From: Candidatus Acidiferrales bacterium
Lineage (GTDB): Bacteria > Acidobacteriota > Terriglobia > Acidiferrales > UBA7541
Direction: 5' to 3'
NCBI GenBank assembly: GCA_030037525.1
Contig: JASHRC010000105.1
Location: forward strand, 1-53,642
DNA length: 53,642 nucleotides
Positions within the stretch are counted from its first letter, which is position 1, and every line of letters begins with the position of its first letter. Below, in pieces: positions 29,789 through 46,865 of this stretch. The translations under genes and the position numbers were made by a program. Below the pieces are notes generated by a model that saw only the letters and a list, made by a program, of their open reading frames with translations, was not told the DNA's origin and searched no databases.

Positions 29789-31384
29789 CTATGGCCTACC
29801 GAGGAGGCGCAAACGATCTTCCGCACGCTGCGCCCCGACCGTGAGAGCGGAGCCAGCTGTAGGTCCGGCGGCTGGTACTGGACGGCGCCAGGCTGCGAGC
29901 CCCTCTTTGACAAGGCCGAAGATGGTACGGCGATTTTGAGTTATCAGCTTCAGCCAAGCAAAGCGGCTCATTTGAGGAAAGTAGATTCCGCGAAAACACA
30001 TTCGTGCGATGAAGATGTTTATTCGATGGTCGAGCGGCTTGTGAGCTAGCGCCTGGACGGCTTTTTCCAATGCCTCCGGGTTATAGGAATTGGCCCAGGC
30101 GTACTTCAACTCCGCGTGAGCTTCTGCGATCGTCATCTTCAGCGGCTCATGGGACATCTCAAAAGGTATGAACTCCAGCCAATGTTTCGGCCGGGTGAGT
30201 CGCCCCGCGGCCTCTAGCCTCCTGTATAGAGGCGTCGCCGGTAACGGTGTGAGTAAACCAAAGATCGGGAGCCCAGGGGGCCAGGTACGAATCTCCCGAA
30301 GCGTCCGCTCGGCGACCCCGGGCGTGTCGTTATCCATGCCGAAGATGAACGAAGTGATCGCATAAACGTCGCGCTGGGCGAGCCTTTCAAGCACGGTCGC
30401 ATACTCAGCCGGCTTGTTGAAACCCTTCTTCACGTCGGCAAGATTGGCAGCATCGATTGATTCCATGCCGATAAAGATCCACTTGCCGCCCGATGCCGCA
30501 ATGAGGTCAACGAGTTCCTCGTCGCGCAACAAGTTGGCGCTGATCTGCGCAATCCAGTGCACCTGTGCCCCAGCCGCGATGATATCCCGCAACAATGATT
30601 TCGTCCGCTTGACGTTGATCGCGAAGTTGTCGTCGATGAAGAACACGACAATTTGACCGCGCTCGCTCCGCGCGCGAGCCTTCAAAAGCAGCAACTCATC
30701 CACGATACTCTTGTTTGTGCGGAACCGGATCGAGTCACCGAAGAAGCCAGTGACCGTGCAAAATTCGCAGCCATAAGGGCACCCGCGCCCTGATTCCATG
30801 GGAATGATTCGAAATGTGCCCCAGCCGTCCCCGACACGCTGCAGCATACTTTTCGCGAATTTCGGAACCAGGTTGAACTGGTCGAGATTTAGCGTGTCCC
30901 ACGGAATCGCGGGATATGACTGGAGCCCGGGCTTGCGTTCCTTGCCAGATTCGTCGACCGGAGCGTAGATGTCTTTGAGTTGGCCCCGCGCAGCATCCTC
31001 GACGATCATCGGCCAGGTTTCATCCGCCTCGCCTAGAGCCACGGCGTCGGCATGGCGCGCGCCACCGTTCCGACCGAGTGCCTCGTCTGCCATCTCTGTC
31101 ACGTGAGGTCCGCCCATCACAACCGGGACACCCATGGCACGGACAGCGTCGGCGACCCTGTACGCCTTTGCGATCATCCGGGTCATTGCCCCGATCCCAA
31201 CCAGTCCGATGTTTTGTTCCCCCATGAATCGCGCGATGCCAGCTTCATCCATTGGTGTCACGTTGCCATCGATGAGTAGAACTTCGTGGTCCGAGGGAGT
31301 CAATGACTGAAGGAGAAACATCCAAAGATGCGGCATGAAATTGCGTGTGACGCCATTGTCCGGATTGTAGAGTAAAATTCGCAT
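29789..31384 (-). CDS. B12-binding radical SAM protein
   Basis: A 531-residue protein with an N-terminal cobalamin-binding Rossmann domain (about 1-150: 'MRILLYNPDNGVTRNF', 'HEVLLIDGNVTPMD', 'VPVVMGGPHVTEMADEAL') and a radical SAM domain with the 4Fe-4S motif Cys202-x3-Cys206-x2-Cys209 ('CPYGCEFC'). A glycine-rich SAM motif ('FIGMESIDAANL') and a DUF4070-like C-terminal region follow. Related proteins include hopanoid and bacteriochlorophyll-type methylases and other B12-dependent radical SAM enzymes; the substrate here is unknown. ATG 31384 starts exactly at the first strand; the frame is open 14 codons upstream. It is monocistronic. Confidence 0.88.
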   Translation of the reverse strand: MRILLYNPDNGVTRNFMPHLWMFLLQSLTPSDHEVLLIDGNVTPMDEAGIARFMGEQNIGLVGIGAMTRMIAKAYRVADAVRAMGVPVVMGGPHVTEMADEALGRNGGARHADAVALGEADETWPMIVEDAARGQLKDIYAPVDESGKERKPGLQSYPAIPWDTLNLDQFNLVPKFAKSMLQRVGDGWGTFRIIPMESGRGCPYGCEFCTVTGFFGDSIRFRTNKSIVDELLLLKARARSERGQIVVFFIDDNFAINVKRTKSLLRDIIAAGAQVHWIAQISANLLRDEELVDLIAASGGKWIFIGMESIDAANLADVKKGFNKPAEYATVLERLAQRDVYAITSFIFGMDNDTPGVAERTLREIRTWPPGLPIFGLLTPLPATPLYRRLEAAGRLTRPKHWLEFIPFEMSHEPLKMTIAEAHAELKYAWANSYNPEALEKAVQALAHKPLDHRINIFIARMCFRGIYFPQMSRFAWLKLITQNRRTIFGLVKEGLAAWRRPVPAAGPTAGSALTVGAQRAEDRLRLLGRP

Positions 31385-31798
31385 CAGCTCTTCTTTATTT
31401 AAAAGCCGCTTCGTCGTGCAGGACAAGCCACGATCTCAACGCCGATCTCCGATGGAGCGCACAGCAAGACGACGCCTAACACACCACGTCCGTCATTCAT
31501 TCTGCGCCGGTGAATCAGGCAATACAAGCAACAGCCTTTGGACAACGAGAAATCAGCATGCTGCGGGATAAACACCGAGACATGAACATGCTCTACATGG
31601 AGCTAACTTTACGGCCAAGTGGCTTCAACGAGAAATCCTATGCACCTCATGGAAATCTCGTTTGATTTCTGACGCTGGTGCTACTGCTTCGAGAGGTTTT
31701 GGCTGCGCCGCGCACCGACGCGCCTGCTCGCCGCAAGACGATGGATTCGCCCAGGGAGTGAGCGTCGCAAAACAAGGACGCCCATTCACAAAAGCCGT
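31385..31798. other. Intergenic, no gene seen
   Basis: About 410 bp with no supported coding frame on either strand; it presumably contains the promoter of the radical SAM gene. Confidence 0.5.
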
Positions 31799-37395: not shown

Positions 37396-39198
37396 ATGAC
37401 GACAAAGCGAAGTTGGTTTTTGACCGCTGCGCTGCTGGTGAGCGGCTTGTGCCTGGCCGCGACAGCTTCCGCGCAGGTGACGCTGGAAGTGATGAATCCG
37501 CGGGGCGAAATTCCTCCGCCGAAAACGCTGGGGATCAGCCCGCGTGGGTCGAGTCTCGATGGACGGAAGATCGTCCTGATCGACAACGGCAAGTTCGGGG
37601 CGAGCAATTTCCTTGACGCGCTCGCCGAGATGCTGAAGCAAAAATATCCGACGGTGACTGTCGTGATGTATCCGAAGCCGGCAGCCCAAACGATTACCGA
37701 CTTGCCGAAGTGGTATCCCACCGTCAAGCAGCAGGGCGACCTTTTTGTTTTCGGTGTCGGTGATTGAGGGAGCTGCACGTGGTGGGGTTCCCACGACACG
37801 ATCGAAATTGAAAAGACAGGAATGCCGGGCGTTTATTTCACAACCACCGAATTTCTGGAGGACGCCAAATCCGCAGCCCGCGATCGCGGCATGCCGGGGA
37901 TCCGCATGCTGGCGCTTCCAGCTGACAAGTATTACGTTGCACGCGGGAGCAAAGAAGTTTTGCAGCCGATTGCCGATCAGTTTTTCCCCAAAATGGTCGA
38001 CGACCTCACGCGGTCGCTCACGCCGGAAGAGGCTCATCCCGCCCAGGCGCAGAAGCTGCTGGAAAGCGCGAACATCCAGGTGACCGGCAAAGACCTTCTG
38101 GACGCCTCGGAGCGGGTAAACGACCTCTTCCTAGCCAGCCACTGGGCTGACGGCTTGCCGATCGTCCCGCCAACCCCTGAGTTAGTGAGGAAGATGGAAG
38201 CGGGAACGACGCTTTCGCCACAGACGGTGATCGGACAAGTCGCACCGAAGAACGGCACGGCTACTGTCGAGAAGATCGCGATCAACTCCGTGATGGCGGG
38301 AGCGAAGCCGGAATATTTCCCCGTGATTTTGGCGGCGATGGAAGGCTTCACGGACAAGCACTACGACCTGACGCACGTGGTGGCATCCACGGGATCCTTC
38401 ACGCCGGTGGTGCTGGTGGATGGTCCGGTCGCGCAGGAGCTCGGATTCAACTCCGGCATCGGCATGCTGGGGATTGGATGGCAAGCGAACAGCACGGTAG
38501 GCCGGGCCATCCAGCTTTCTCTGCTGAATCTCGGGCAGACTTGGCCGCAAGTGAACTTTATGGGTCTCACGGGGCGGCTCGAGGGCTACACCTTCTACAC
38601 CTTTGCGGAGGACACGGCCAAGAGCCCGTGGGAGCCCTACCACGTGAGCCAGGGCTTCCAAACCGGAGACAGCACAGTGACCGTGTCGTCGTCGGGGAAT
38701 CCCGTTGTTTTTGGCGGCGGCGCGGTAGCGCCATGGACCGCGCAGGGCGTGATCGATCAGATGGTCGCGCAAATTCGGAACCGGGGAGTGGTGTGGCCGC
38801 ACGCTCAGAAGCACATCCTGGTGCTGCATCCGGATTGCGCGGTCGAGCTTGCAAATCACGGCTACACGCGAGGGAGCCTGCAGGAATACCTCTACGAGCA
38901 AACCCGCGTACCCTATGAGAAGTTGGCGAGCCAAGTCTCATTCGGGCAGGGCACCGAAGAGGATTTCATCCGGGCGTCGATCGCCGACGGCCGAATCCGG
39001 CCCGATCGGGCCCAGATTTTCCTGGACAATCTCAAGCCCGGCGGGCGGATCCCAGTCGTGCAGAGCCCCGCCGATTTTCACATCGTCGTGGCGGGCGGCT
39101 CGCCCGGATATGATCTGCTGTTTACCTACCCGGGAACGAACTGGGCGCACCAAACGGTGAAAATCACGGGCGCCACGCTAACCAAAGCGGGCCGATAG
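37396..39198 (+). CDS. UGSC-family selenoprotein (in-frame TGA read as Sec)
   Basis: Read through one TGA at 37765-37767, this is a 600-residue exported protein. It has a signal peptide ('FLTAALLVSGLCLAATASAQ') and a UGSC domain in which Sec124-Gly-Ser-Cys127 ('GVGD-U-GSCTWWGSHD') forms a thioredoxin-like redox pair. A second domain of about 370 residues starts near 'ERVNDLFLASHWADGLPIVP'. Frame is kept for 477 codons after the TGA with no other stop, and a SECIS-like hairpin starts 10 bases behind it. Without Sec insertion the gene would look like two frames, 37396-37767 and one from 37822. The UGSC family is named for this motif; its reaction is unknown. A nonsense mutation is the alternative, less likely. 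sel genes are not in the window. It heads a cluster with a diheme cytochrome c and a quinoprotein. Confidence 0.85.
37778..37800 (+). promoter_or_regulatory. SECIS-like hairpin after the Sec codon
   Basis: A lower stem CGTG/CACG and an upper stem GTGGG/CCCAC enclose a GTT triloop, with a two-base GA bulge on the 3' side. The loop G is 20 bases from the TGA, within the bacterial SECIS distance, and a GU in the apical loop is the SelB recognition feature. It lies inside the coding sequence, as bacterial SECIS elements do. Confidence 0.65.
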
Positions 39199-39257: not shown

Positions 39258-40076
39258 TTGAAAAAATTCGCGGTTGTCGCGATTCTGGTTCTTGCCGCTG
39301 TGGTGTTGCTCAAGGCGCAAGAAGGTGCGGCGCCTCCGGCCCAGGGTGGACCGGGCGCTCGGAACCCTGCGGCGGAGGCGACGCTCGCTGCGGCCACCGA
39401 ACGCGGGCGCGCACTGTTCAAGGACAACTGCGCTGCCTGCCATGGGGAAGACGCTACCGGCGGCAGAGGCACTGATCTGATCCGTTCGACGCTTATTCGT
39501 CACGACAAGAACGGCGAACTCATCGGTCCGGTGGTCACGGGTGGCCGCCTGGAAAAGGCCATGCCCGCTTTTCCATCGCTGATGGAATCGCAGGTTTCCG
39601 ACATCGTCGCCTTTTTGCACGCGCAGATCACGCTGTTTGATCTGCATACGCGCTTCGGTCCTTATCCGAACGACATTCCGGCTGCGCGCCTCGCTACCGG
39701 TAGCGTCGAAGCGGGCAAGGCCTATTTTTATGGCGCGGGCGGATGCTCGAATTGCCATTCGCCCACAGGCGACCTCGCGGGCATCGCCAGCAAATATAAT
39801 CCGCCCGACCTGGAAGTGCGCTTCCTCTATCCCTCCGGCACGCCGTCCACGGCGGTCGTCACGCCCCCCGACGGCGAGAAATATGAGGGCACGCTCTTGC
39901 TGAATGACGGCTTCAACGTCGCGATTCAAGCCAAAGACGGCTGGTATCACTCCTGGCCGGCCAGCTCCGTCAAAATAGAAGTGCATGACCCGCTAGCCGC
40001 CCACGCCGCGCTCCTTGATAAGTACACCGACGCGGACATGCACAACATCTTCACCTACCTGGAGACCTTGAAGTGA
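39258..40076 (+). CDS. Diheme cytochrome c
   Basis: A 272-residue exported cytochrome. The signal peptide 'KKFAVVAILVLAAVVLLKAQ' is followed by two c-heme domains: Cys58-x2-Cys61-His62 ('NCAACHGED') and Cys163-x2-Cys166-His167 ('GCSNCHSPTG'). A Met in 'EKAMPAFPSLMESQVSDIVA' is the likely sixth ligand of the first heme. It starts at TTG 39258 with GGGGGAG upstream. Its stop overlaps the start of the PQQ dehydrogenase by 4 bp, so it very probably accepts electrons from that enzyme in the periplasm. The second domain carries an extra beta insertion of about 80 residues. Confidence 0.88.
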   Translation: MKKFAVVAILVLAAVVLLKAQEGAAPPAQGGPGARNPAAEATLAAATERGRALFKDNCAACHGEDATGGRGTDLIRSTLIRHDKNGELIGPVVTGGRLEKAMPAFPSLMESQVSDIVAFLHAQITLFDLHTRFGPYPNDIPAARLATGSVEAGKAYFYGAGGCSNCHSPTGDLAGIASKYNPPDLEVRFLYPSGTPSTAVVTPPDGEKYEGTLLLNDGFNVAIQAKDGWYHSWPASSVKIEVHDPLAAHAALLDKYTDADMHNIFTYLETLK

Positions 40077-41707
40077 AAGTGACCAGGTTTTTGGTTCTGA
40101 TTTTGCTCGGGTGTTCTTTCGCGGCGTGCCTGGCCGCTCAGGAACTGGACCCCTCCGAGCTTCTGAAGCCGTTATCGACCGACTGGCCGACCTACAACGG
40201 CGATTATTCCGGACGCCGCTTCAGCCTCCTCAAGCAGATCAACCTTGACAATGTCGGATCCATCACGCTGGCTTGGGCATTTCAGACCCACGGCCACAGC
40301 CTGCAATCGATGCCCATCGAAGTCGGCGGAATCATGTACATTTCCGCCGGAAATGAGATCTGGGCGGTGGACGCGCGCAATGGCCGGCAGGTCTGGCATT
40401 TCACGCGCCCCGGAGCTCCTGTCGGTGGAAGCAATAAGGGGGTCGCAATGTGGCGGGACCGCCTCTACATGACGACTCCCGATGACCAGCTGCTTTGCGT
40501 GGATGCGCGCAACGGCAAAATGCTTTGGCAGATTCAGATCGATGATCCGACGTTCAAAGCGTTCGGGGCCGTTGCGCCGCTGGTCGTCCGCGATCACATT
40601 ATCGTTGGCACCTCCGGCGACACGGCGGACCTGCCCGGTTTCCTTGAATCGGTCGATCCTATGACCGGCAAAATTCAGTGGCGCTGGGATGTCATGCCGG
40701 AAAAGAGCGACACGGTCGCGTGGAACAGCTGGCCGCACGATACCAACGTGAGCACCCGTGGCGGGGGGATGACCTGGATCACCGGCACCTACGATCCCGA
40801 GCTGAATCTCCTCTATTGGGGCACCGGCAATCCGCATCCGGTCGAGAATGGCGAAGCGCGAATCGGCGCGAATCTTTATACCTGCTCGATCGTAGCGCTC
40901 AATCCCGACACCGGGAAACTCGTCTGGTATTTTCAGTCGTCACCCCACGACACGCACGATTGGGACACGGTCATGACGCCCGTGCTCTTCGACGGCGCCT
41001 TCCAGGGCAAACCGCGCAAGATGCTTGCGCAGGCGAATAAGAACGGACTGTTCTTTGTTTTGGACCGCACCGACGGCAAAGCTCTCATCTCTGAAGCCTT
41101 CGTCCCGGCGAATTGGGTGGAGGGCTACGACGCGCGCGGCCAGCCGATTCCGCGCCAGGACAAAGATCCGCAACCGGACGGTGTGCTGGTCAGCGGCGGC
41201 GTGGGAACGAACTGGCAGGCCCCCAGCTACGATCCTGAAACCGGGCTCTTCTACGTCAACTCACGCGAGACGATGGGCGTCTTTTATCTCACCATGCCCG
41301 GAAAGTCCGCCGAGGGTTGGGCGGGCCGCGATTTCTTCCTGAGGTCTAAGTCGATGCTGAAGGCCATCGACGTAAAGACTGGCAAGACTCGTTGGACCGC
41401 CGACACCGAGGGTCGCGGAGGCCAGTCTGGCATCCTTTCAACTGCCGGCCATCTTGTGTTTACCGCAGACATGTCGCAAAACCTGGTCGCGCTCGACGCC
41501 TCGACCGGCAAGACTCTTTGGCACATGTATCCGGGAGGCTCGTTCGGCACCGGCCCGATGACTTACCAGCTCGACGGCCGCCAATATGTCGTCTTCCTCG
41601 ACGATAGTGTGGCCTACGCGTTCGCTTTGCCCTGGCGGCCGGCGGCCACCCAGTCAGCGCACCAGAGCTTGTCCCCCGGCACACTCCACGCCAAGTCCAA
41701 TCCATAG
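40073..41707 (+). CDS. PQQ-dependent alcohol dehydrogenase-type quinoprotein
   Basis: A 544-residue exported eight-bladed propeller. After a signal peptide ('FLVLILLGCSFAACLAAQ', possible lipoprotein Cys) comes 'DWPTYNGDYSGRRFSLLKQI', the standard start of this family, and repeated blade motifs such as 'DARNGRQVWHF' and 'DVKTGKTRWTA'. The acidic catalytic residue expected near the PQQ carbonyl lies in 'HDTHDWDTVMTPVL'. Size and lack of a C-terminal heme domain match quinoproteins that pair with a separate cytochrome c, here the upstream gene, which overlaps by 4 bp (GTGA). PQQ and a metal ion are the expected cofactors; alcohol is the likely substrate class. Confidence 0.88.
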   Translation: MKVTRFLVLILLGCSFAACLAAQELDPSELLKPLSTDWPTYNGDYSGRRFSLLKQINLDNVGSITLAWAFQTHGHSLQSMPIEVGGIMYISAGNEIWAVDARNGRQVWHFTRPGAPVGGSNKGVAMWRDRLYMTTPDDQLLCVDARNGKMLWQIQIDDPTFKAFGAVAPLVVRDHIIVGTSGDTADLPGFLESVDPMTGKIQWRWDVMPEKSDTVAWNSWPHDTNVSTRGGGMTWITGTYDPELNLLYWGTGNPHPVENGEARIGANLYTCSIVALNPDTGKLVWYFQSSPHDTHDWDTVMTPVLFDGAFQGKPRKMLAQANKNGLFFVLDRTDGKALISEAFVPANWVEGYDARGQPIPRQDKDPQPDGVLVSGGVGTNWQAPSYDPETGLFYVNSRETMGVFYLTMPGKSAEGWAGRDFFLRSKSMLKAIDVKTGKTRWTADTEGRGGQSGILSTAGHLVFTADMSQNLVALDASTGKTLWHMYPGGSFGTGPMTYQLDGRQYVVFLDDSVAYAFALPWRPAATQSAHQSLSPGTLHAKSNP

Positions 41708-43298: not shown

Positions 43299-44399
43299 AT
43301 GAAAGAGATGGCAAGGTGGCTGGCTCTGGGAGCCCTGGTGCTGCTGGTATCTGTAGCTTCGCCGCGGCCGGCTCGAGCGCAAGACGATTCTGGATTTGAG
43401 GATCCCACCGCGCAGGCTCCGCCACCGCAATTCATCACACCGGCTGAAGTCAAGAAGATGATCGACGACCACGACAAGGGCTTCGCTCTGGTGGATACCC
43501 AGCCCGAGGAGGCCTATGCCGAAGGGCACATTCCCGGGGCCATCAATTACCCCTGGGTTCCCCAAGTGAAGCCGCCGGTTCCGCTTCCCCGCAACAAGAT
43601 GCTGATCTTTTACTGTCCCTGTCAGCACGACGAAGATTCGATCGACATGTACAAGAAGCTTGTCGAGTTCGGTTATCTGAACACCAAGATTCTCGAGGGC
43701 GGCTGGTACAAGTGGGTTGCGCTCAAGTACCCGGTTGAGGGCACCGACGCCGCGAACGCCATCAAGGAAGCTGAAGCGGCGGCAGCGAATGGCAGCACAG
43801 GCGGCGCCCGTTCTTCGGCAGCCGCCAACCCGAGCGCGAACGCCCCTGCGCAACCCGCTGCGGCGTCCGCCAATGCTTCGGCTCAGCCCGCCACAGCCTC
43901 CGGCCCGATTACGTCCGGCCGTCCGGTGGGAGCCGTTACGCCATCCCTGCGCGTTATCGATGTCACCGGGAAATACAAAGGCCAGGACACCTGTTACGTT
44001 TGCGAGTACGGCCCTGCGCCGACTGTCATCGGTTTCTTCAGTAAACCGAGCGATCAGGCGGCCGATTTGATCGTTAAGCTCGACCAGCTCGTGAAGTCAC
44101 AGAAGAATCTGAAGGGCTTCGTCGTAATGACCGAGGGCGCTGCCTCGAAGGAATGGCTCGAGAAGCTAGCGGCCGATAAGGGCATCGAGGTTCCGCTCGT
44201 CTATTTCGCCAGGGGTGTTCAGGATTCCGGCATGCGCGTCTACAAGCTGAATCCCGCGGCGGACAACACAATTCTGGTGAACGACAATCGTCAGGTCGTC
44301 GCCAATTTTGTCAACATCACCGACTCCACGTTCGACCAGGTGCGGGAGGCTTCCCTCAAAATGCTGGCATCGGCGGCGCCCGCCGGAAGCGGCCAGTGA
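43299..44399 (+). CDS. Exported rhodanese - thioredoxin-like fusion
   Basis: A 366-residue exported protein. Signal peptide 'LALGALVLLVSVASPRPARA'; rhodanese domain at about 42-150 ('ITPAEVKKMIDDHDKGFALV', 'YAEGHIPGAINYPW') with 'FYCPCQHDED' as the active loop (Cys106, Cys108); a low-complexity Ala/Ser/Pro linker of about 65 residues; then a thioredoxin-like domain with 'TCYVCEYG' (Cys232, Cys235) and 'ADNTILVNDNRQVVANFVNI'. The Cys-x-x-Cys pair and fold suggest periplasmic thiol or persulfide chemistry. Its stop overlaps the next start by 4 bp. The rhodanese loop has one residue between two cysteines instead of the usual single Cys. Confidence 0.82.
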   Translation: MKEMARWLALGALVLLVSVASPRPARAQDDSGFEDPTAQAPPPQFITPAEVKKMIDDHDKGFALVDTQPEEAYAEGHIPGAINYPWVPQVKPPVPLPRNKMLIFYCPCQHDEDSIDMYKKLVEFGYLNTKILEGGWYKWVALKYPVEGTDAANAIKEAEAAAANGSTGGARSSAAANPSANAPAQPAAASANASAQPATASGPITSGRPVGAVTPSLRVIDVTGKYKGQDTCYVCEYGPAPTVIGFFSKPSDQAADLIVKLDQLVKSQKNLKGFVVMTEGAASKEWLEKLAADKGIEVPLVYFARGVQDSGMRVYKLNPAADNTILVNDNRQVVANFVNITDSTFDQVREASLKMLASAAPAGSGQ

Positions 44400-44935
44400 C
44401 CATGGCTTCGTCGCTGAGACCGACTTGGCTCGCACTGGGCGCGTTGTGTGTTTTGGCTCTCGCCGTGCGCGGCATCGGCGCACAGTCCACGGCACAGAAC
44501 GATTTGAAAGCTGTCGACCCGAAGGATATCAAGAACCTCATCGGGGCGAATAAGGGCAAGGTCGTCTTCCTGAACTTCATGGCCACCTATTGCGTCCCGT
44601 GCCACACTGAGTTTCCCGACATCATCAAGCTGCAGACAAAATACAAGGATTCGCTCCAGGTCATCGAGGTTTCGATGAATGACCGCAGCGATGCGGCTGA
44701 GACCACAGAATTGACCAAATATATCGCTGACTTGAAGCCGCCGTTCACGGTCTACATTGCCACCTCCACCGACGATCAGTATTACAAGGACGTCGACGCA
44801 CGCTGGGCCCAAAGCGAGGCTCTCCCGATGACCATGATTTTCGATCGCGAAGGGAAAGAGATCCACTTCTACCAGAAAGCGCTGACGCTCGCCGATATGG
44901 AGCGCGACGTCACTCCTCTGCTTGCGGCCAAATAG
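44396..44935 (+). CDS. TlpA/ResA-like periplasmic thioredoxin
   Basis: A 179-residue exported thioredoxin-fold protein with signal peptide 'TWLALGALCVLALAVRGIGA' and active site Cys66-Val-Pro-Cys69 ('NFMATYCVPCHTEFPDI'). The cis-Pro loop is at 'EALPMTMIFDREGKE'. Such proteins reduce disulfides on apocytochromes or other exported partners. It starts at GTG 44396 (an ATG lies two codons later) overlapping the rhodanese gene, and its stop lies inside the start region of the next quinoprotein, so three genes form one coupled operon. Confidence 0.88.
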   Translation: MTMASSLRPTWLALGALCVLALAVRGIGAQSTAQNDLKAVDPKDIKNLIGANKGKVVFLNFMATYCVPCHTEFPDIIKLQTKYKDSLQVIEVSMNDRSDAAETTELTKYIADLKPPFTVYIATSTDDQYYKDVDARWAQSEALPMTMIFDREGKEIHFYQKALTLADMERDVTPLLAAK

Positions 44936-46865
44936 CAACGTTCGGTGCCTGCCGACTGCACGGAGAGTCCATGGCTCCGAGCACCGCACGGAATCGGGGC
45001 TCCTGGCGGCTGCCTTTCGCGATTGGCAACGGCGGTTTCTCTCGACAGCGCTCCTGGCGCTTTTCTTGGCGTCCGCTCCCCTGGGCGCCCAATCGCAGGG
45101 CGATTGGCCCGTGGCCGGGCAGGATCCCGGCTCTCAGCGCTTTTCTCCGCTGAAGCAAATCAACCCGCACAACGTCACCAGGCTTCGCCGCGCCTGGACA
45201 TTTCATACCGGCAATCCAAGCGAGGATGTCAATTCCGAAGGCGCGCCTCTGGTGATTGATGGCGTGATGTATTTCGACGCCGGCAAGAATGTCTACGCGC
45301 TTGATCCCGTCACCGGCCGGCTGATTTGGAAATTCGAAACCAAAGGTACGTCTCGCCGCGGCGTCGCCTACTGGCCCGGTGACGAGAGAGCCGGCCCGCG
45401 CATCGTCGTCGGCGTTGCCGGAAGGCAAATGCTTGCACTCGATGCCAAGACAGGCAGGCCCGTTGCGGAATTTGGCAGCGGCGGTTTCGTTTCCGACGAA
45501 AGCCCCTCCTCATCGCCGGTCATCTACCGCAACCTGATCATCACCGGGGATAACGGCGTCCAGATGATCCGCGCCTATGACGCGCACGACGGCAAGCTGG
45601 TTTGGACCTTCCATACGCGCGCCGAGCCCGGGGATCCCGGGCATGATTCGTGGAAGGACGACAGCTGGAATCTCGCTCGTGGCGGCGACGATGTCTGGTC
45701 GTTCATGACCCTCGACGATCGGCGCGGCATCGTCTATTGCCCGATCGCGCCCACCGGCGGCCCGGATTTCTACGGTGGCATGCGTCTGGGCAATACGCTC
45801 TACGGCGATAGTGTCGTCGCGCTCGATGCCTCGACGGGCAAGCTGCTCTGGTATCAGCAGCTCGTCCATCACGATCTTTGGGATTGGGACGTGTCCGGCG
45901 CGCCGACCCTCTTCGATATCCGGCGCAACGGCAAAACGATTCCCGCCGTCGCCGAATTCAGCAAGCAAGGCCTGCTTTACATCTTCAATCGCACCAACGG
46001 CACTCCCGTCTTCGGCATGGAGGAGCGTCCAGTACCGCAATCGGATGTTCCGGGCGAACAGACTTCCGCAACCGAGCCTTTTCCGCTGAAGCCGCCGCCG
46101 CTAGCGCCCATGAGCGTCACCAAAGCCGATATCGTCGACCTCACGCCGGAGCACGCCTCCTATTGCCAAGCCTTGTGGGACGACAACCACATGTCGAACG
46201 ACGGGCCCTTCACCGTGTACAGCACCGACCCGAACAAAATGGCCGTGATTTTTCCGGGGCGCGAGGGCGCGGGGAATTGGGGCGGTGTGGCCTTCGATCC
46301 CAAGCTCGGCTACCTGTTCGGCACCACCGCCTTCAATGCCGGCCAGATCGGCCGCCTGGTCAAAAGCGAAAAGCCGAATCCTCGGGGAGGCCCCTACGAC
46401 AAGGTCTTTCCCAATGGCCCTTCGCCCTATCAGAGCCGCTTCTGGGATCCCCGCAACGGCTGGCCGTGCATCAAGCCGCCTTGGGCTGAAATCTTCGCGG
46501 TCAATGCAAAAACGGGCGACATTGTTTGGCGCGAACCGTTCGGCACCGTGGATGCCCTGGCCGCCCAGGGCTTCCCGAATACGGGCGCGCCCAATACCGG
46601 CGCTATGGTCATCACCGCGGGCGGCCTGATTTTTATCGGCGGCACGAACGATGGTCGCTTCCGTGCCTTTGATGCTCGCACCGGCAAGAACTTGTGGACT
46701 GAGAAAATCGACGCCAGCGCTCACACCATTCCAATCACCTATATGGGCCATGACGGCAAGCAGTATGTTGTCGTGGAAGCTTTCGGCGGTCCCGGCATCG
46801 TTGCAATCAGCGGCTACTTCCACGACGCCCCTGGTGACTCCGTCATCGCCTTCGCTTTACCCTAA
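44922..46865 (+). CDS. PQQ-dependent quinoprotein dehydrogenase
   Basis: A 647-residue exported quinoprotein of the glucose/alcohol dehydrogenase superfamily. The frame starts at TTG 44922, 14 bp inside the preceding gene, and an N-terminal extension of about 35 residues precedes the signal peptide ('FLSTALLALFLASAPLGAQ'); no later standard start precedes that signal. The mature part opens 'DWPVAGQDPGSQRFSPLKQI' and shows blade motifs 'DPVTGRLIWKF', 'DASTGKLLWYQQLVHHDLWD' and 'DARTGKNLWTEK'. No heme or copper domain is attached, so electrons must go to a separate acceptor. It differs clearly from the two other quinoproteins of the window. Confidence 0.87.
   Translation: MRPNSNVRCLPTARRVHGSEHRTESGLLAAAFRDWQRRFLSTALLALFLASAPLGAQSQGDWPVAGQDPGSQRFSPLKQINPHNVTRLRRAWTFHTGNPSEDVNSEGAPLVIDGVMYFDAGKNVYALDPVTGRLIWKFETKGTSRRGVAYWPGDERAGPRIVVGVAGRQMLALDAKTGRPVAEFGSGGFVSDESPSSSPVIYRNLIITGDNGVQMIRAYDAHDGKLVWTFHTRAEPGDPGHDSWKDDSWNLARGGDDVWSFMTLDDRRGIVYCPIAPTGGPDFYGGMRLGNTLYGDSVVALDASTGKLLWYQQLVHHDLWDWDVSGAPTLFDIRRNGKTIPAVAEFSKQGLLYIFNRTNGTPVFGMEERPVPQSDVPGEQTSATEPFPLKPPPLAPMSVTKADIVDLTPEHASYCQALWDDNHMSNDGPFTVYSTDPNKMAVIFPGREGAGNWGGVAFDPKLGYLFGTTAFNAGQIGRLVKSEKPNPRGGPYDKVFPNGPSPYQSRFWDPRNGWPCIKPPWAEIFAVNAKTGDIVWREPFGTVDALAAQGFPNTGAPNTGAMVITAGGLIFIGGTNDGRFRAFDARTGKNLWTEKIDASAHTIPITYMGHDGKQYVVVEAFGGPGIVAISGYFHDAPGDSVIAFALP

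Follow-up and report, generated by a model that had tools for sequence, protein, structure and literature searches.

The question raised by this locus is whether a TGA codon, lying inside an otherwise open frame, ends a gene or is read as selenocysteine (Sec), and what kind of protein would be made in the latter case. The window, by which the whole analyzed stretch of 53,642 nucleotides from a Candidatus Acidiferrales genome is meant, was studied around this frame. The original prediction had described two frames in the same register which are split by a single TGA, and the coordinates and the frame agree with it: one frame starts at ATG 37396, runs for 600 codons and is closed by TAG 39196-39198, its sole interruption being the TGA at 37765-37767, and 476 codons follow 3′ of it. 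Position 37822, given earlier as the start of the second frame, is merely the first ATG 3′ of the TGA, and the frame is open directly from the TGA. When the TGA is translated as Sec, the motif U124-G-S-C127 appears in a 600-aa product, as had also been predicted. We consider the locus to be one intact selenoprotein gene having a two-domain anatomy with Sec124, with a probability of about 0.88, and the TGA itself is almost certainly read as Sec. Frame continuity, sel genes, Sec/Cys interchange, freezing of synonymous sites, linkage with a partner domain and cluster synteny rest on sequence; the actual Sec insertion and the export and chemistry of the product are what we infer. The features are collected in Table 1.

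Table 1. Features of the UGSC locus and of the cluster downstream of it, in window positions.
Feature	Position	Strand	Basis
Predicted UGSC fusion selenoprotein gene, 600 aa, Sec124	37396..39198	+	translation, Pfam, genus-specific profile
Probable Sec-type signal peptide, cleavage near ASA-Q	37396..37473	+	by eye
UGSC domain, PF24696 positions 1-171, unbroken over the TGA	37486..38010	+	profile search
In-frame TGA, predicted to be read as selenocysteine U124	37765..37767	+	sequence and relatives
Cys127, second UxxC residue, presumed resolving partner	37774..37776	+	no variation at either UxxC position in 25 aligned domains
SECIS-like hairpin; apical stem 37783-37786/37790-37793, loop GTT 37787-37789	37778..37800	+	sequence, codon freezing
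C-terminal partner-domain region, about 370-400 aa	37990..39195	+	without convincing Pfam/NCBIfam/PDB match; elsewhere a separate neighbouring gene
Cytochrome c, cluster member	39258..40076	+	annotation, synteny
PQQ-dependent dehydrogenase, cluster member	40073..41707	+	annotation, synteny
Rhodanese-domain protein, cluster member	43299..44399	+	annotation, synteny
Thioredoxin/redoxin-like protein, cluster member	44396..44935	+	annotation, synteny
Second PQQ-dependent dehydrogenase, cluster member	44922..46865	+	annotation, synteny

The family of the protein was assigned by profiles. Residues 31-205 are matched by the Pfam UGSC profile PF24696 with 114.5 bits, over a cut-off of 25, and the separate halves around the TGA give 46.2 and 17.6 bits, the latter falling below this cut-off; as the match runs unbroken over the TGA and the whole scores higher than the halves, the continuity is far beyond chance. 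The NCBIfam equivalog NF041046 gives 91.8 bits against a cut-off of 125. The family call of the original prediction hence stood at the level of Pfam and did not extend to the equivalog, of which the protein is a divergent relative. Judged by its sequence, it is a divergent, fused UGSC subfamily. The U/C-x-x-C motif has the form UGSC in the window, and its two motif positions are invariant in 25 aligned domains. No relative was found in viral contigs.

The window's genome is a MAG of 4.22 Mb in 286 contigs, 92.98% complete and 3.23% contaminated. Lack of sel genes, named earlier as the case against Sec decoding, is not what this genome presents: selA (561.5 bits), selB (365), selD (367) and tRNA-Sec (70.2) all lie over their curated cut-offs, and the anticodon of the tRNA-Sec is TCA by ARAGORN (UCA in the RNA). 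selA is present in 53 of 61 genomes of relatives and in all 13 genus genomes with UGSC genes, and being so widespread it is permissive and not discriminating. Among the UGSC genes of the own genome that were read out, 5 of 11 have TGA also as their true stop, so TGA is not simply reassigned.

The other case against it was that close relatives might keep an ordinary stop with a separate second start. From 144 Pfam-profile matches, 136 genes in 15 genomes were read out (six partial fragments and the genes G001:C20 and G017:C133 were omitted); the site is TGA within one frame in 132 of them and TGC (Cys) in 4, which together with the sel genes supports the Sec decoding. The Sec motifs are USTC (57), UGSC (18), UGGC (14), UDGC (12), UHGC (8), USYC (6), UPGC (6), USSC (5), UEAC (3), USGC (2) and UNGC (1), and those of the Cys copies are CSTC (2), CAGC (1) and CSTY (1). 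In a tree of 115 full proteins, made by a quick method with SH-aLRT support, the four Cys copies represent three changes nested in Sec clades, which is also obtained on the well-supported branches alone; the window gene pairs with its orthologue in genome G010, and its subfamily stands well apart from the others. Cys at the Sec position is also found in Natrinema, Neorhizobium, Variovorax and Embleya. Between the window gene and the G010 orthologue the part 3′ of the TGA has 52, 32 and 214 changes at codon positions 1, 2 and 3, with 172 synonymous and 72 non-synonymous codons. The sole close relative in named genome contigs, a Candidatus Acidiferrales MAG taken as the same record as G010:C102, has 84% identity in the downstream part and keeps the TGA. 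Fused homologues of Sporomusa termitida (L273 6980-8704) and Vibrio europaeus (L276 6992-8677) carry MGTS in place of UxxC; both redox residues are lost in them, and they adjoin aconitase X and DUF126 genes.

For the partner region (residue 199 onward) no PDB relative came up at E values up to 10, and searches of the partner domain against Pfam and NCBIfam gave scattered weak matches, each confined to one or two of the 20 members searched. Among 20 aligned partner domains there is no invariant Cys. For the linkage of both domains 31 loci were chosen for short UGSC genes, and L199 was dropped as a fusion by its open frame. The partner domain lies in the same stretch in 17 of the 30 short-UGSC loci, flanking the gene on either side and twice encoded on the opposite strand, and since the stretches reach only about 1.5 kb out, the misses are not absences. 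In Natrinema and Paracoccus the two domains are encoded by separate genes, in Embleya by separate genes in reversed order, and in Neorhizobium VafX2 the annotation has two CDS, whereas Acidovorax sp. T1 (with TGA) and Variovorax (with Cys) have them fused. The gene break of Paracoccus, Natrinema and Embleya is outside the UGSC domain and not at the Sec site. Truncation of such genes by annotation, which had been foreseen, is seen in Acidovorax sp. T1, where the deposited CDS ends exactly at the TGA. This UGSC-TGA fusion is carried by the conjugative IncP plasmid p2-T1 (L271 6971-8506), with transposase genes a few kb away, and on plasmid pFER4 of Paracoccus ferrooxidans (L275 7007-13688) the UGSC-TGA gene and the partner gene are separate, selB following some 3 kb further downstream.

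A bacterial SECIS is a hairpin just 3′ of the UGA, with its loop about 16-37 nt off and a G among the first two loop bases. The predicted hairpin is found in the sequence as claimed and agrees with this rule, having a TGGG/CCCA stem, the loop GTT and the loop G at 20 bases past the TGA; a lower stem 37778-37781/37797-37800 is possible. An Rfam search gave no SECIS match and the unconstrained fold of the stretch favours a different hairpin, so that the hairpin alone proves little. Folding energy was compared with synonymous reshuffles in 63 of 126 distinct genes, and it gave no SECIS signal, the mean z being -0.05 over the 14 codons directly 3′ of the TGA; it was higher than in the reshuffles for windows starting 7 and 14 codons past the TGA (z +0.81 and +0.55). 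With RNAalifold, the subfamilies did not yield one shared consensus. These 63 genes also have a dip in folding energy (mean z -0.78) about 14 codons 5′ of the TGA.

Codon usage was then compared at conserved columns, in which at least 90% of the genes share an amino acid that has degenerate codons, a frozen column being one with a single codon in every gene. The window subfamily (15 genes) has frozen columns at 6 of 8 places from +1 to +12 and at 4 of 99 elsewhere (p 3e-6, with kinship ignored); its hairpin stem is invariant and hence offers no covariation. The largest subfamily, H, with 84 genes (78 distinct), has 6 of 7 columns frozen after the TGA and 2 of 36 elsewhere (p 3e-5, again with kinship ignored). 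Its Pro+5 is CCA in 72/78 (background 7%), Ala+6 is GCG in 77/78 (45%), Thr+7 is ACC in 70/70 (37%) and Gly+9 is GGT in 62/70 (11%). The stem of subfamily H reads GACC-GUC-GGUC with the loop G 22 nt past the UGA, and of its pairs the outermost is kept in 75/76, the next two in 76/76 and the innermost (24-28) in 68/76. Positions 22 and 30 covary, being A-U in 70 and G-C in 8 of 78 and never mixed: a change from Thr to Val (GTC) goes with a change of the Gly codon to GGC, and this is seen in three separate parts of the tree, namely in the USYC group, in G017:C36 and in G052. In most other subfamilies a different stem is possible by eye at a similar distance. All four Cys copies have two hairpin codons changed, with CCG or CCC at Pro+5 and GGC or AAC at Gly+9, and GCG is still kept in three and ACC in two of them. 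The codons 3′ of the TGA do show constraint, which we regard as natural evidence for a SECIS in the coding region. As a side observation, the base before the UGA (37764 in the window) is U in all 127 distinct long-form TGA genes, one of them being from G052 outside the genus (GAU 15, CAU 82, GGU 30), and in 22/22 of a second genus, against a background of 14% T at third positions. In the short-gene set it is T in 15 and C in 19, 3 of these 34 sites not being UxxC. No single helix accounts for this U, which is kept by three of the four Cys copies.

Two other readings of the TGA have to be weighed against these data. If it were an ordinary stop, as the default reading by table 11 has it, 37396-37767 and 37822-39198 would be two genes or a decayed gene, and two-gene versions of the pair do occur in Paracoccus, Natrinema and Embleya; but the break in these relatives falls outside the UGSC domain, whose profile in the window runs across the TGA, and with one TGA kept in 13 of 13 paralogues of the own genome, protein-like evolution of the part 3′ of the TGA and codon freezing directly behind it, we find this reading highly improbable. 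Passage of the TGA without selenium, as Trp or by near-cognate suppression, draws on the free energy, which gives the hairpin no support, but it is scarcely credible in a genome with complete Sec machinery where 5 of the 11 UGSC genes use TGA as a normal stop, and the alternative residue in relatives is Cys, both in the 4 of 136 genes and in the four named genera given above. Under the preferred reading of one selenoprotein gene, SelB and tRNA-Sec would decode UGA 37765 as Sec, guided by the short hairpin within the coding sequence, and the product would have two domains and probably be exported, with the UGSC domain holding Sec124 and Cys127 and the partner domain having about 370 aa.

Export was assessed by an N-terminus heuristic in which the starts were chosen mechanically and may be wrong. 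In subfamily H (71 full proteins), 64 carry RR within the first 12 residues and 67 have a hydrophobic stretch near the start, which we take for a Tat-like look. Such a stretch is missing from all 17 proteins in the UDGC/UEAC and UPGC groups and occurs in 5 of the 14 full proteins in the window's subfamily, and the N-terminus of the window gene resembles by eye a Sec-type signal peptide. From these N-termini the family would seem to act on either side of the membrane.

The genes downstream in the window are, in order, cytochrome c, PQQ dehydrogenase, glyoxalase/SpoIIE, rhodanese, thioredoxin-like and second PQQ dehydrogenase, and without the glyoxalase/SpoIIE gene this order is kept in five genomes, the window's own, G017, G001, G009 and G010 (in G010 it was followed until the stretch ends inside the rhodanese gene). 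Of 7 loci of the window's subfamily beyond the window, 3 lack the cluster, and in the second genus a PQQ gene is near UGSC in 0 of 20 loci, so the cluster is not a general partner. In the own genus 17 of 28 loci, many of them orthologues, have a PQQ gene within 2 kb of the UGSC gene, as do 4 of 12 copies in the own genome (C76:13095 was left out), at a random expectation of about 3% from the 22 PQQ genes of the genome. Other copies adjoin hydantoinase A genes, a UroD-like gene or a split PEP-synthase-like pair, and in proteobacterial plasmids, Sporomusa and Natrinema the UGSC genes adjoin tricarboxylate-transporter binding proteins, PEP mutase, aconitase X or CoA enzymes. These neighbourhoods point to the catabolism of small organic compounds, with a substrate that would differ by copy. 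On contig C200 of the own genome (L061 14043-18582, L062 676-1689) the UGSC genes are interspersed with two hydantoinase A genes and a UroD-like gene. A B12-binding radical SAM protein at 29789-31426 of the window is without link to the UGSC gene.

The own genome carries 11 UGSC genes by the Pfam profile and 13 UGSC-type genes by a genus-specific profile, which was made from 25 domains of the own genome and relatives, and exactly one TGA is present in each of the 13; the 12 sister genes had been missed earlier, as had the partner domain. Six copies are on the single 51.6-kb contig C200. Searched with the genus-specific profile, 12 of the 20 genomes of the genus yield 5-18 matches, counts which take in some contig-edge and frame-broken fragments, while one has a single match and seven have none. 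No UGSC match was found in 17 genomes of other genera of the family or in 6 others of the order, and 2 of 18 other genomes of the class have matches. In a sample of the phylum, with at most 8 candidates scored per genome, 41 of 396 genomes match, 30 of them with one or two matches that are mostly short frames. The second genus is a distant acidobacterial one (g74, family f38; e.g. G171, G331), in which 10 genomes, searched in full, have 10-28 matches each; among the matches listed most have TGA, some are without stop and a few have two TGAs or TGA with TAA. The copies fall into subfamilies common to several genomes. It would appear that the lineage multiplied the UGSC enzyme, probably for different substrates.

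The UGSC domain was compared with the selenoproteins of glycine and proline reductase, GrdB/PrdB (PF07355). With hhalign, 25 UGSC domains against 9 GrdB/PrdB Sec segments gave a probability of 96.8 over 75 columns, in which the Sec residues are aligned with each other, a link made by this single profile pair of 25 and 9 sequences. PF07355 itself has no match in the 25 UGSC domains at E up to 10, and the partner domain against the GrdB segment gave a profile probability of 0.1. On the profile evidence the UGSC domain is rather probably related to GrdB/PrdB. Comparison with the cluster's own thioredoxin, a weak control of one sequence, gave a probability of 0.15. AlphaFold reached a pLDDT of 36 for the full-length protein from one sequence and 68 for the UGSC domain with one orthologue, where the other four models stay at or below 42 and the Sec region is below 50. 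This weak model (pLDDT 68) has five alternating strands and helices, and Foldseek ranks lumazine synthases, flavodiiron proteins and flavodoxin-type folds highest, at TM about 0.5 or less, with no thioredoxin in the 50 rows listed. A thioredoxin-like fold, which was guessed for UGSC in PMC2398784, is made somewhat less likely by this weak model. For the chemistry, we suggest as the likeliest course that Sec would be the nucleophile in a GrdB/PrdB-like active site with a small organic substrate held by the partner domain, that the Se-S or Se-substrate state may be reset by the thioredoxin encoded in the same cluster, and that the product may be handed to the neighbouring PQQ dehydrogenases and cytochrome c, though the scheme is rather unlikely to hold in every detail.

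The function and the copy numbers could each be read differently. The protein may be a real selenoprotein and yet a thioredoxin-like general thiol reductase or peroxidase, and not a GrdB-like catabolic enzyme. This was the guess of the 2008 survey for UGSC (PMC2398784), and it suits the UxxC motif and the rhodanese and thioredoxin of the cluster; the lack of profile similarity to that thioredoxin in the one-sequence control, the lumazine-synthase/flavodoxin-type alpha/beta look of the weak model, the seemingly catabolic neighbourhoods and the MGTS of two named homologues in place of UxxC argue against it, and we hold it to be rather unlikely. Inflation of the genus copy numbers by mis-binned contigs of several species would fit a MAG of 286 contigs with 3.23% contamination, the 7% contamination of G331 and the fragments among the counts, but it is very improbable, as G001 (30 contigs, 93% complete, 1% contaminated) has 9 copies by the Pfam profile with five on one 524-kb contig, G017 (96%/1%) has 14 by the same profile, six own-genome copies share one contig and the subfamilies are shared across genomes. 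With the reading of a multiplied catabolic selenoenzyme we tentatively propose, at odds somewhat short of even, that two lineages of Acidobacteriota possess numerous two-domain selenoenzymes, some exported and some cytoplasmic, most of the members sampled having 5-28 paralogues of this one family in their genome. These enzymes would join a GrdB-like Sec nucleophile with a private substrate domain, act on many substrates and be partly coupled to PQQ dehydrogenases. This would be Sec-based catabolism in soil bacteria which are probably aerobic and which stand apart from the selenoprotein-rich groups, these being mostly anaerobic.

The UGSC protein is named in PMC13188914, PMC2398784, PMC9312934, PMC5029168, PMC9402790, PMC7435645 and PMC7539508, and an acidobacterium with 3 selenoprotein genes is given in PMC12013277. 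Organisms are called selenoprotein-rich from six genes up and are mostly anaerobic Deltaproteobacteria, Clostridia and Synergistetes, and the largest bacterial selenoproteome counted has 39 genes (PMC5029168, PMC9312934); the UGSC row of the table in PMC5029168 reads '26 33' over more than 5200 genomes, which we take as organisms and genes. The UGSC family and its fusion with "Unknown_1" are already known. The accessible text of the open literature on the UGSC protein, a scope outside which subscription papers and supplements fall, held no mention of an acidobacterial expansion, which is likely, though not proven, to be new. In the accessible open text we also found neither the partner domain of about 370 aa as a separate neighbouring gene, nor a likeness of UGSC to the GrdB/PrdB active-site segment, nor a conserved cluster of cytochrome c, PQQ dehydrogenase, rhodanese and thioredoxin. 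One family alone accounts for 13 genes in this genome and up to 28 matches in another, most of the matches listed being with TGA, and annotation which takes TGA as a stop is expected to cut each gene into a short and a headless protein, as in Acidovorax. With its many Sec copies, few Cys copies and tight codon constraint, the family is well suited as a natural experiment on the reasons for retaining Sec and on the requirements of a SECIS. The interest thus lies in the multiplication of the family, the partner domain and the SECIS constraint in the coding region, the single gene being a divergent member of a known family.

Compared with known systems, the likeness to GrdB/PrdB is a shared profile around Sec, with UxxC and then ExxGIPtv, and the differences are that the UGSC domains are without direct PF07355 match and that the partner domain is unlike the GrdB segment. 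A UGSC selenoprotein fused to the conserved domain Unknown_1 was described from the Global Ocean Sampling survey (PMC2398784), which is the same architecture of a UGSC selenoprotein with a conserved unknown domain; the fused domains reported there usually carry conserved Cys, whereas the 20 aligned partner domains here have no invariant one, and Unknown_1 may or may not be identical with the partner domain. With the UGSC family (PF24696/NF041046; the 'UGSC-containing protein' of Zhang and Gladyshev) the window protein shares the UxxC, the profile over the Sec site and the interchange of Sec and Cys. It differs from this family in lying below the NF041046 cut-off and in its fusion to the partner domain, the match to a 147-position model sitting within a 600-aa protein, and here the genomes hold many paralogues with varied motifs.
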